Below are positions 13,428 to 17,955 of a stretch of DNA of 37,769 nucleotides, piece after piece. Source of the DNA: an uncultured Erysipelotrichaceae bacterium. GTDB taxonomy: Bacteria; Bacillota_I; Bacilli_A; RF39; UBA660. The notes beneath the pieces are model-generated. The model was given only the letters and a program-made list of their open reading frames with translations, was not told where the DNA came from and did not search any database. Position numbers and translations under genes: made by a program. The stretch's first letter is position 1, and every line of letters begins with the position of its first letter. Where the stretch lies: the NCBI GenBank assembly GCA_902783315.1, contig CACZQK010000029.1, forward strand, positions 1 through 37,769, in the 5' to 3' direction.

Positions 13428-13433
13428 TGAAAT

Positions 13434-13616
13434 AACTTCTTGGGAAAGAGTAGTTTTTAAATATTTTTAGAGACAGTGTGTTTGGTGAAAATACTGAGTA
13501 GATAAAGATGAAGACAGCCTATTAATAAGAAGCGTTTGCCAACGTTATCGGTATAATAGAAAGAAAATAAGGTGGCACCGCGAAGTATTCGCCCTTTGGT
13601 TGTGCTATCTTTTTAT
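13434..13616 (+). promoter_or_regulatory. T-box leader controlling hisS-aspS, predicted to sense tRNA-Asp
   Basis: The leader between promoter and hisS contains the T-box landmarks. CTTCTT (about 13436-13441) pairs with AAGAAG (about 13528-13533) to close stem I. GAGTAG near 13448 is the AGTA element. A GGTG-A rich apical element lies near 13484. AATAAGGTGGCACCGCG at 13566-13582 is the antiterminator T-box. The best-placed specifier triplet is GAC (13513-13515), an Asp codon; no His codon is seen on that side of the loop. The bulge reads TGGC, which pairs with discriminator G73, as in tRNA-Asp; bacterial tRNA-His has C73. Specifier placement was done by eye. Confidence 0.85.
13571..13616 (+). 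terminator. T-box attenuator terminator
   Basis: GGTGGCAC (13571-13578) can pair with GTGCTATC (13601-13609), followed by TTTTT. It uses the same bases as the antiterminator, so the two folds exclude each other, as expected for a transcriptional T-box. Confidence 0.75.
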
Positions 13617-13632
13617 TTTATAAGGAGGATTT

Positions 13633-15129
13633 ATGATACAAAGACAAAAAGGTTGTAGTGATATTTATGGAAGAGAAGCTAAAGTATGGAAATATGTAGA
13701 TACTGTTATTGATGCTATAATGGAAAAATATAATTATAATTATATTCGTACACCTATTTTTGAAGCGACAGAATTGTTTCATCGTGGAGTAGGAGAAACT
13801 ACTGATATTGTTACAAAAGAGAGTTATGATTTTGAAGATAAAGGTGGAAGAAAAATAACCCTTCGTCCCGAAGGAACTGCTGGTGTTGTTCGTAGTTATA
13901 TCGAAAATAAAATGTATGGGGATGTTAGTCAACCTATTAAGGTTTATTATAATGGAACTATGTATCGATATGAGAGGCCACAAAGTGGTAGAGACCGTGA
14001 ACTTACACAATTTGGAATGGAAATTTTAGGTAGTGATGATCCTCTTAGTGATGCAGAGATTATTAGTGCAGCTGTTAACGTTTATAAAATGTTAGGTTTA
14101 AAAAAACTTGTTGTTCATCTTAATACTTTGGGAGATGATGAATCTCGTAAGCAGTATCGGGAAGCTTTAATTGATTATTTTAAACCTCACATTAAGGAGT
14201 TTTGTGAAGATTGTCAAAATCGTTTAAAAAAGAATCCATTAAGAATTTTAGATTGTAAAGTAGATGCAGAAAATGAGATATTAAAAAATGCTCCAAAAAC
14301 TCTTGATTATTTAACTGAAGAGAGTCGCAATCGCTTTGAAAAAGTTCAAGAATTTTTAGATATTATGCAAATTCAGTATGAGATTAATCCTAATATTGTT
14401 AGGGGACTAGATTATTATAATCATACTGTGTTTGAGATTGAGGCAAAAGTAGAAGGTTTTGGATCTAATAATGTTATTGGAGCAGGTGGAAGATACAATG
14501 GATTAGTAAATCAATTAGGAGGACCACAAACTGCCTGCGTCGGTTTTGCATCTGGTATTGGGCGTATTGTTATGGCTCTTGAATTAGAAAAGGTTCAACT
14601 TCCAATAGTTGATAGTATTGATTTGTTTTTACTTTATGTTAATGAAGATGAAAAGAAATATGCTGCTTATTTAACACAAGAATTACGTACTGCTGGTTTT
14701 ATTGTTGAGACAGAGTATACAGGTAGGTCTTTAAAGGGACAATTTAAACAAGCAGATCGATTAAATTCTAAATTTACTTGTGTTTTAAATAGTGAAGATT
14801 TGAATAATAATGAAATAAAAATTAAAAATAATAAAACAAAAGAAGAAGAAGTTATTAGTTTGGATGTTTTAATTTATTATTTGGATGAACATCTTAATTC
14901 TGATTTGTTTGGTGATGATTGTGATTGCGGTTGTGGTTGCCAAGAAGGAGTAGAATGCACTTGTGGTGATGATTGCAAGTGTAAGCATGATTGTGATTGT
15001 GATGAAAATTGTGATTGTGGTTGCCAAGAAGGAGTAGAATGTACTTGTGGTGACGATTGCAAGTGCAAGCATGATTGTGATTGCGATGAAAATTGTGATT
15101 GTGGATGTCATTGTCATCATGAAAAATAG
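13633..15129 (+). CDS. hisS: Histidyl-tRNA synthetase with a cysteine-rich C-terminal tail
   Basis: A 498-aa protein. Residues 1 to about 427 are an ordinary class II HisRS: TLRPEGT (76-82), motif 2 YRYERPQSGRDRE (111-123), the histidine-specific GLDYYNHTVFE (258-268), GAGGRYNG (283-290) and a C-terminal anticodon-binding domain. HisRS usually ends about here (420-430 aa). From residue 428 to the end there are 71 more residues with 23 cysteines, mostly as C-x-C, plus Asp, Lys and His. They comprise DDCDCGC, two identical 28-residue units (435-462 and 463-490, nine Cys each) and GCHCHHEK. The tail is in frame and ends at TAG 15127. It looks like a metallothionein-type metal-binding extension; no function is known to me. 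AAGGAGG precedes ATG 13633. aspS follows 15 bases later. Confidence 0.97.
   Translation: MIQRQKGCSDIYGREAKVWKYVDTVIDAIMEKYNYNYIRTPIFEATELFHRGVGETTDIVTKESYDFEDKGGRKITLRPEGTAGVVRSYIENKMYGDVSQPIKVYYNGTMYRYERPQSGRDRELTQFGMEILGSDDPLSDAEIISAAVNVYKMLGLKKLVVHLNTLGDDESRKQYREALIDYFKPHIKEFCEDCQNRLKKNPLRILDCKVDAENEILKNAPKTLDYLTEESRNRFEKVQEFLDIMQIQYEINPNIVRGLDYYNHTVFEIEAKVEGFGSNNVIGAGGRYNGLVNQLGGPQTACVGFASGIGRIVMALELEKVQLPIVDSIDLFLLYVNEDEKKYAAYLTQELRTAGFIVETEYTGRSLKGQFKQADRLNSKFTCVLNSEDLNNNEIKIKNNKTKEEEVISLDVLIYYLDEHLNSDLFGDDCDCGCGCQEGVECTCGDDCKCKHDCDCDENCDCGCQEGVECTCGDDCKCKHDCDCDENCDCGCHCHHEK
14935..15102 (+). repeat. Tandem duplication, 2 x 84 bp, inside the hisS tail
   Basis: Copy 1 is 14935-15018 and copy 2 is 15019-15102. 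They differ at four positions, all C/T changes in third codon positions, so both encode the same 28 residues. The repeat begins with GGTTGCCAAGAAGG. Confidence 0.97.
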
Positions 15130-15144
15130 GAAGAAGGTTAATAT

Positions 15145-16458
15145 ATGAAGATAAATGTTAATGAATTAAAAAAACATATTGGAGAAAAAATTGTTTTTAG
15201 TGGGTTTATTGATGCTATAAGAGATAAAAAGTGGGTAATGTTTGTTATTCTTAGGGATAATACTGGTAAAGTACAATTAACTATTGAAAAAAGTGATGAA
15301 AATAATAAAGATTTACTTGAAATAATGGCTAATACTACTGTAGAATCTACTATTCGTGCTGAAGTTGAGGTTATGGAAAATGATGCAGTTAAATTAGGTG
15401 GGCTTGAACTAATCCCTAGTAAAATAGAGATTACTAGTAAAGCTGAGCCATTACCATTTGATTTTAATAATTTAGATGGTGTTAATATTGATACAAGGAT
15501 GGATTATAAATGGCTAGATATGAGGAATTTTCGTAATACTTTGATTAGACAAGTAGAATCTTGTATGACTGAAGCAATGAGAAATTACTTATATAAGAAT
15601 AATTTTATTGAGATTCATTCACCTAAATTAATTGGGACAGCTTCTGAATCTGGCTCTGATGTGTTTGAAGTAAAGTATTTTGATCGGTTGGCTTATTTAG
15701 CTCAAAGCCCACAGTTTTATAAACAAATGGCTTTAGCAGGTGGTCTTGATAGAGTTTTTGAAGTTGGACCAGTATTTCGTGCGGAAAATTCTAATACAAA
15801 TAGGCATGCTACCGAATTTACTGGGTTTGACTTAGAATTTGCTTATATTGACTCTTATGAAGATGTAATGGGCTTAGAGGAAGATTTATTAATAGCAGGT
15901 CTATCTGCTGTTAAAAAAAAGTATGGTGATCAAATTCTAGAAGTGTTTGGTAAAGAAGTAATAGTTCCTACTAAACCATTTCCAAAAATTAAATTGAAAG
16001 ATTTATATGCAAAGTTGCATGAAAAATATGGCTTTGATATTCCTAAAGAAGATGTAGGTGATATGAATGCTGAAGCTGAAAAACTAACTTATCAATTGGC
16101 AATGGAGGAATATAATTCAGAATTTATGTTCGTTATTGATTATGCAGCAACAAAGAGACCATTTTATCATATGAGAGATGAAAATGGTAAACTTCAGGGA
16201 TATGATTTGATTTGGAGAGGGGTTGAAATAACGAGTGGTGCTCAAAGGGAGCATCGTTATCAGGAACTTCTTAAAAATGCTAAGGAAAAAGGCTTAGGGG
16301 AAGACGTTAAGTTTTATTTACAATTTTTTAAATATGGATGTCCTCCACATGGTGGGTTTGGAATTGGATTAGATCGACTTACAATGTTACTTTTAGGACT
16401 TTCTAGTTTAAAAGAAACACAATTTTTATTCCGTGGACCTAATCGATTAAATCCATAA
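15145..16458 (+). CDS. aspS: Aspartyl-tRNA synthetase, archaeal-type (AspRS2-like)
   Basis: A 437-aa class IIb synthetase. The N-terminal OB-fold (about 1-105) binds the anticodon. Class II motifs include GTASESGSDVFEV, YLAQSPQFYKQM, FEVGPVFRAENSNT with HATEFTGFDLE (motif 2 region), and the C-terminal GFGIGLDRLTMLLLG (motif 3). The bacterial AspRS is about 590 aa with a GAD insertion domain; this protein lacks that insert and has the archaeal/eukaryotic length and motif wording. Such enzymes may charge tRNA-Asp only, or also tRNA-Asn when GatCAB is present; the sequence does not settle which. GGAAGAAGG lies upstream of ATG 15145. It is co-transcribed with hisS, as in Bacillus, but there the second gene encodes the bacterial-type enzyme. 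Confidence 0.9.
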   Translation: MKINVNELKKHIGEKIVFSGFIDAIRDKKWVMFVILRDNTGKVQLTIEKSDENNKDLLEIMANTTVESTIRAEVEVMENDAVKLGGLELIPSKIEITSKAEPLPFDFNNLDGVNIDTRMDYKWLDMRNFRNTLIRQVESCMTEAMRNYLYKNNFIEIHSPKLIGTASESGSDVFEVKYFDRLAYLAQSPQFYKQMALAGGLDRVFEVGPVFRAENSNTNRHATEFTGFDLEFAYIDSYEDVMGLEEDLLIAGLSAVKKKYGDQILEVFGKEVIVPTKPFPKIKLKDLYAKLHEKYGFDIPKEDVGDMNAEAEKLTYQLAMEEYNSEFMFVIDYAATKRPFYHMRDENGKLQGYDLIWRGVEITSGAQREHRYQELLKNAKEKGLGEDVKFYLQFFKYGCPPHGGFGIGLDRLTMLLLGLSSLKETQFLFRGPNRLNP

Positions 16459-17766: not shown

Positions 17767-17772
17767 GAAAGT

Positions 17773-17955
17773 GTCAGATAGATATGTACAGACACTTTTA
17801 AAACCGACAAATTAACGATAAGGGAGTTCGGAACAGCTATCGGTGTTGAATACTTAATTTTAAAATTAAGGATCCTAATGATAGCGTATGAACACCCACC
17901 TGGTCTATGGATTAGGTTTTATCGTTTGTCCAAGGCATTTTATCTGACTTTTTTG
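17773..17955 (+). ncRNA. ssrS: 6S RNA (regulator of RNA polymerase)
   Basis: A non-coding transcript of about 180 nt with its own promoter and terminator. The ends pair as GTCAGATA (17773-17780) with TATCTGAC (17941-17948), followed by six T. An inner helix joins AACGATAA (17814-17821) to TTATCGTT (17919-17926), extended by GACA/TGTC. This leaves a large central bubble, with the perfect hairpin CTTAATTTTAAAATTAAG (17853-17870) inside. Size, long closing stem and open centre fit 6S RNA. The strongest support is position: in Bacillus subtilis 6S-1 RNA lies between aspS and yrvM, and yrvM is the homologue of the next gene here. Known role: mimics an open promoter and sequesters sigma-A RNA polymerase. 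No covariance search could be run. Confidence 0.82.
17941..17955 (+). terminator. Terminator of the 6S RNA
   Basis: The 3' strand of the closing helix, TATCTGAC, is followed by TTTTTT and more T-rich sequence. The helix partner is 160 bases upstream at the RNA 5' end, so termination may depend on the inner stems too. Confidence 0.6.

Follow-up and report, generated by a model that had tools for sequence, protein, structure and literature searches.

The window studied here, positions 1 to 37,769 of contig CACZQK010000029.1 of an uncultured Erysipelotrichaceae bacterium from the gut, raises the question of why a histidyl-tRNA synthetase (HisRS) should end in a peptide with 23 cysteines. The hisS open reading frame encodes 498 amino acids, of which residues 3-409 match the hisS model TIGR00442 at 470 bits, above its curated cut-off of 286.75; the class II and HisA motifs are conserved in the HisRS alignment, and the protein is predicted to be catalytically active. 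Read in frame, the last helix of the anticodon-binding domain is followed by a short acidic linker and then by the cysteine-rich tail (Table 1). Thus the original prediction, a 71-residue cysteine tail on a complete HisRS, is borne out by the translation of the reading frame and by the model score.

Table 1. Positions of hisS, its parts and its neighbors within the window
Feature	Position	Strand	Evidence
T-box leader upstream of hisS	13428..13599	+	Rfam RF00230, 84.5 bits, E 3e-19, below gathering score 93
hisS, whole open reading frame	13633..15129	+	TIGR00442
HisRS core, 417 aa (catalytic and anticodon-binding domains)	13633..14883	+	TIGR00442, PF13393, PF03129
Acidic linker DEHLNSDLFG	14884..14913	+	resembles start of relatives' short tails (tabulated tails)
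Metallothionein-like tail, 71 aa, 23 Cys, and stop codon	14914..15129	+	composition; purifying selection on Cys codons in relatives
Repeat copy 1, CGCQEGVECTCGDDCKCKHDCDCDENC	14932..15012	+	Tandem Repeats Finder, codon comparison
Repeat copy 2, protein identical to copy 1, 4 synonymous DNA differences	15016..15096	+	Tandem Repeats Finder, codon comparison
aspS, next gene after hisS	15145..16458	+	NF003483, 446 bits
6S RNA	17769..17953	+	RF00013, 49.3 bits

The tail (residues 428-498, 14914-15126) contains 14 C-x-C pairs, 15 Asp, 5 Lys and 5 His, ends in CHCHHEK and has no Phe, Tyr or Trp. With cysteine at 23 of 71 positions, its composition is that of metallothioneins in general and is far from that of the other proteins in the window, which average 1.3% Cys (binomial P 6e-26). 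Tandem Repeats Finder reports an 84-bp unit (28 residues) in 2.2 copies with 93% match at 14924-15104, a feature that the original prediction did not mention. In Pfam the tail has no match at E<=1, and it comes near the cut-off of no NCBIfam model. An AlphaFold prediction run with 9 sequences has a mean pLDDT of 49, too poor for use, with almost no structure predicted after residue 422.

The aspS gene begins 15 bases after the hisS stop codon, and an aspS-like reading frame is also present at 26 of the 30 hisS loci of the genus. In the window, aspS encodes the non-discriminating aspartate--tRNA(Asn) ligase, a shorter type distinct from the 590-aa bacterial form. Within the 319 kb (320 open reading frames) sampled from the organism's own genome, where the original prediction had proposed to search for the same unit, we found nothing comparable and no other protein resembling the cysteine module. 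HisRS has 13 Cys in its last 40 residues, and the runner-up has 6, apparently those of a common zinc ribbon. The genome also has another HisRS-like gene, of PRK12420 type and without a tail (L371, G000:C5:300-1595, minus strand), adjoining an ArgE/DapE-like hydrolase; it scores 488.9 bits against the PRK12420 cut-off of 540, also exceeds the hisS cut-off, and was not detected in the other genomes of the genus.

The possibility that a frameshift or misassembly had joined hisS to a separate small gene, or that close relatives stop before the tail, can be set aside: relatives from many independent assemblies carry the tail in frame, with aspS downstream and no early stop, and we therefore reject an artefact. 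A HisRS match was found in 38 of 39 genomes of the genus, and an acidic, Cys/His-rich tail with 5-29 Cys follows in frame in all 30 of the HisRS that could be read to the C-terminus. Short tails (31-46 residues, 5-9 Cys) are the majority, while 8 of the 30 are long (56-98 residues, 14-29 Cys); the closest relative is G021. Among 96 HisRS rows from the wider family, the tail has no Cys in 16, 1-9 in 65 and at least 10 in 15. On a tree of these rows, built on the HisRS core alone, the long-tail class requires up to 9 changes, at least 4 of them forced by well-supported branches, and thus tail expansion occurred repeatedly.

The cysteine codons of the tail are under purifying selection. In two long tails that align without gaps over 106 codons (L243 and L244), 24 differences are synonymous and 5 nonsynonymous, and all 29 Cys are kept through 11 TGT/TGC swaps; the two 27-codon repeat copies in the window have no nonsynonymous difference. 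Our argument for selection rests on this pair and on these repeats, since Cys retention in gapped pairs is partly favored by the alignment. The metallothionein-like tail that was predicted is thus also a selected one. Synonymous divergence between the L243 and L244 tails is 0.74, about five times the 0.14 of their cores, hinting at repeat conversion or recombination.

The tail had been viewed as a peculiarity of HisRS, perhaps tied to histidine chemistry, but this finds no support, and we can rule out an invention confined to HisRS: the same module stands alone or is fused to unrelated proteins, and the HisRS tails of the clade range from 0 to 29 Cys. The module core, CGCQ(E/D)GxECTC, is common to HisRS tails, stand-alone proteins and other hosts, including the letters between the cysteines (Q, E/D, G, E, T), and we therefore read it as one module and not as mere compositional convergence. 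A family search with the tail gave matches in 34 of 291 genomes, and a module profile at E<=0.01 gave matches in 29 of 291, mostly in proteins other than HisRS. Wide occurrence in the phylum was rejected, as only 2 of 392 sampled genomes had it, both from the same family as the window. Searched with a degenerate DNA pattern for CGCxxGxxECTC, the genome collection yielded at least 114 stretches, nearly all in uncultured metagenome-assembled genomes (MAGs) and many from animal guts. The NCBI lineages among the matches listed include Bacilli, Erysipelotrichia, Clostridia and Mycoplasmatota, as well as Alphaproteobacteria (including Rickettsiales bins), Melainabacteria, Verrucomicrobiota, Bacteroidota, Saccharimonadota and Gemmatimonadota. 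Gut MAGs with the core thus belong to at least seven phyla, a count that mis-binning could inflate, and the two Gemmatimonadota matches may be chance. We also rejected transport of the module on phages or plasmids: no match was found to the pattern in the viral contigs, or by tblastn in the plasmids.

Stand-alone modules are proteins of 40-80 aa, at 42 loci. GrpE carries the module at its N-terminus in Bacilli, Clostridia and Saccharibacteria (L064, L092, L096, L100, L104, L113 and others), an oddity equal to that of HisRS, and a 4Fe-4S ferredoxin carries it at the C-terminus. Further hosts are FKBP, aquaporin, YlbF, an AhpC/TSA peroxiredoxin, SIMPL and DeoC, and in one host type the module is located between RuvX and DUF1292. 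A strict rule of one host per genome is unsupported, as G055 and G307 each have both a stand-alone and a GrpE-borne copy; none of the nine long-tail genomes of the genus has a full-size stand-alone copy, which is not significant alone. One HisRS (G119, L254) is the only member of a 48-row clade without a tail Cys. The genome that encodes it does carry a module of the stand-alone kind (L212), anecdotal support for substitution.

A first link to copper comes from the neighbors of the stand-alone copies. A repressor of family PF02583 adjoins 6 of the 42 loci, against a rough chance expectation of 0.035. Four of the six are one related Bacilli/Clostridia cassette, while those at L128 (horse) and L111 (Rickettsiales bin) look independent, giving at least three different settings overall. 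All six repressors have a Cys and an H-x3-C motif, the copper ligand set of CsoR. The best NCBIfam match for the four scanned is RicR (NF052430), at 58-67 bits, below the cut-off of 175; RicR controls the copper metallothionein MymT in M. tuberculosis (PMC10470581). One 31-aa open reading frame (L202, G018:C1:67666-67713), MKECCKKTERNDEEKKCNCDETCDCGCHNNK, resembles the beginning of a CsoR-like protein fused to the cysteine module. Across the family CsoR is depleted, not enriched, in module genomes (2/29 versus 70/262 others, p 0.02), and thus the regulator link covers few lineages.

Further evidence is that, in the genus, the full module and the copper-exporting ATPase CopA exclude each other. 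Among the 39 genomes of the genus, 15 have CopA, 15 have the full module (9 HisRS-borne, 6 stand-alone) and none has both (Fisher p 5e-5), and the exclusion is seen for the HisRS-borne module alone (p 0.0013) and for the stand-alone module alone (p 0.008). CopA was called by TIGR01511 over its cut-off, with a CPC motif and an N-terminal CxxC in the eight loci read, and the E<=1e-100 cut could miss CopA fragments. The MAGs are incomplete, with a mean completeness of 82% for module genomes and 88% for CopA genomes, and 72% for the window's own genome, but the exclusion persists when genomes are filtered at 70 to 90% completeness (p 1.5e-4 to 0.019); at 90% or more, CopA is found in none of 4 genomes with the full module and in 9 of 12 without it (p 0.019). 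When CopA and the module are modeled on a HisRS tree of 30 tips, dependent evolution fits better than independent evolution (LR 22.9, p 1.4e-4); by simulation, zero overlap has p 7e-4, so that tree-aware p values are about 1e-4 to 7e-4. The test covers one genus and only three well-supported independent pairs, of which an average of 2.8 go in the predicted direction and none ever in the opposite one.

On this evidence, the tail is probably a metallothionein module that sequesters Cu(I) in place of export, its carrier being an essential and constitutively needed protein; in this reading we have moderate confidence. The tail would bind Cu(I), and possibly Zn(II) too, in C-x-C thiolate clusters, and would thereby buffer or sequester soft metal in the cytosol, keeping free copper scarce in cells with no detected exporter. 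In the genus the module appears to replace copper export, CopA being undetected in full-module genomes. HisRS itself would be a carrier, always needed, soluble and with a free C-terminus; we propose that the module rides on it because it is essential and constitutively needed, and not because of its histidine or tRNA chemistry. We read the tail as having begun as a short acidic Cys/His tail and as having been enlarged several times by tandem duplication, probably including capture of the shared module. Since control by the T-box is driven by tRNA and not by metal, the protection would be constitutive.

It is unlikely that the module is instead a buffer for zinc, or for divalent metals in general, and not a copper thionein. 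The tails are acidic and bear His, and His and Asp residues favor Zn(II); one stand-alone copy (L062) adjoins a cation-diffusion-facilitator exporter; and a Zn/Cd-type ATPase (the two copies typed are IB2) is likewise less frequent in module genomes (1/15 versus 10/24, p 0.02), so the exclusion is not purely about copper. Part of this depletion arises because the ATPase shares a stretch with copA in some genomes (L397, L399), and the exclusion is strongest for CopA, while the neighboring regulators have a copper-type set of ligands. The CsoR-type neighbors and the CopA exclusion thus favor copper, tempered by the depletion of CsoR and of the Zn/Cd-type ATPase, and copper is the best-supported ligand of the putative metal-binding module.

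HisRS might also be metal- or redox-responsive, with occupancy or oxidation of the tail altering the charging of tRNA-His, such that metal status tunes translation. The tail directly follows the C-terminal helix of the anticodon-binding domain, and at least one tail Cys is present in 80 of the 96 tree rows; that a short tail persists on HisRS across most of a large clade points to something peculiar to HisRS about the short form. We nevertheless consider a responsive enzyme improbable, given that the module stands alone or sits on many unrelated proteins, that tail length varies several-fold between close relatives, and that hisS is controlled by a T-box, which is tRNA-responsive and not metal-responsive. 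That the tail has no role for metal and serves as a thiol store, a carrier of persulfide or a redox buffer is very unlikely: the very high Cys content, the exposure of gut anaerobes to sulfide and the one fusion to a peroxiredoxin (L081) would be in keeping with it, but the C-x-C spacing and the likeness to metallothionein families, the His of the copper set in the CsoR-type neighbors and the CopA exclusion all argue against it. That the tail is dispensable and its repeats have expanded neutrally or selfishly is scarcely credible, for although tail length and the non-Cys sites evolve fast, those of the short tails especially (tail dN/dS 0.2-0.8 in several pairs), Cys is nearly invariant amid many synonymous swaps, the non-Cys core is conserved across phyla, and the module correlates with CopA. 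Among the roles first offered for the tail, copper handling has gained from the CsoR-type neighbors and the CopA exclusion, whereas neither sensing that adjusts charging nor a sink for cysteine has gained anything.

A larger version of the copper-sequestering reading can be offered tentatively, as possible but doubtful: a portable putative copper-thionein module may spread among gut bacteria of many phyla by joining any essential or abundant protein available, such as HisRS, GrpE or ferredoxin, and so stand in for dedicated export of metal. Where its host is HisRS, it may in addition link the charging of histidine to copper status.

Among known systems, the closest in logic is MymT of the RicR regulon in M. 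tuberculosis, a small Cys-rich Cu(I)-thiolate protein under a CsoR-family copper repressor (PMC10470581). Some stand-alone copies of the module likewise adjoin a repressor of CsoR-family type; unlike MymT, the module in the window is a HisRS tail under a T-box, and no CsoR (PF02583 repressor) was detected in its genome. MymT also differs from the module in sequence and in Cys spacing. Judged by its sequence, the module would work like a metallothionein without being a member of a described family. The nearest Pfam family is Metallothionein family 5, the Drosophila copper thioneins (PF02067), which has the C-x-C pattern in common. Five of six stand-alone modules score 13.7-17.1 bits against its gathering cut-off of 25 and the sixth has no match, while one relative (L077) passes at 31 bits and the tail in the window has no match at E<=1; as PF02067 is an animal family, the resemblance may be convergent. 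SmtA and BmtA, bacterial cytosolic metal-thiolate proteins, are alike in kind, and their family, Metallothio_Pro, matches neither the tail in the window nor the stand-alone modules. SlyD-type FKBP is a housekeeping protein with an unstructured metal-binding C-terminal tail, as is predicted for HisRS here. SlyD tails are His-rich nickel binders, and unlike them the module shows no link to nickel. An FKBP that hosts the module does exist, in a Candidatus Cryptobacteroides (L095:6340-7101, plus strand), with a tail of His runs alternating with CGCGG that ends in the Cys module.

We found no published description of a HisRS with such a tail or of the module, and GCQEGKECTC was absent in a text search of the literature; subscription journals were mostly outside our coverage, so that the novelty is provisional. 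Annotation libraries mostly miss the module because its hosts bear other names. Metallothioneins are usually regarded as dedicated small proteins, while here an undescribed bacterial cysteine module is carried by housekeeping enzymes, and the tail on one tRNA synthetase has grown repeatedly and independently. The genus, in which no genome has both CopA and the full module, offers a clean natural comparison for asking whether sequestration in the cytosol can replace the export of a metal.
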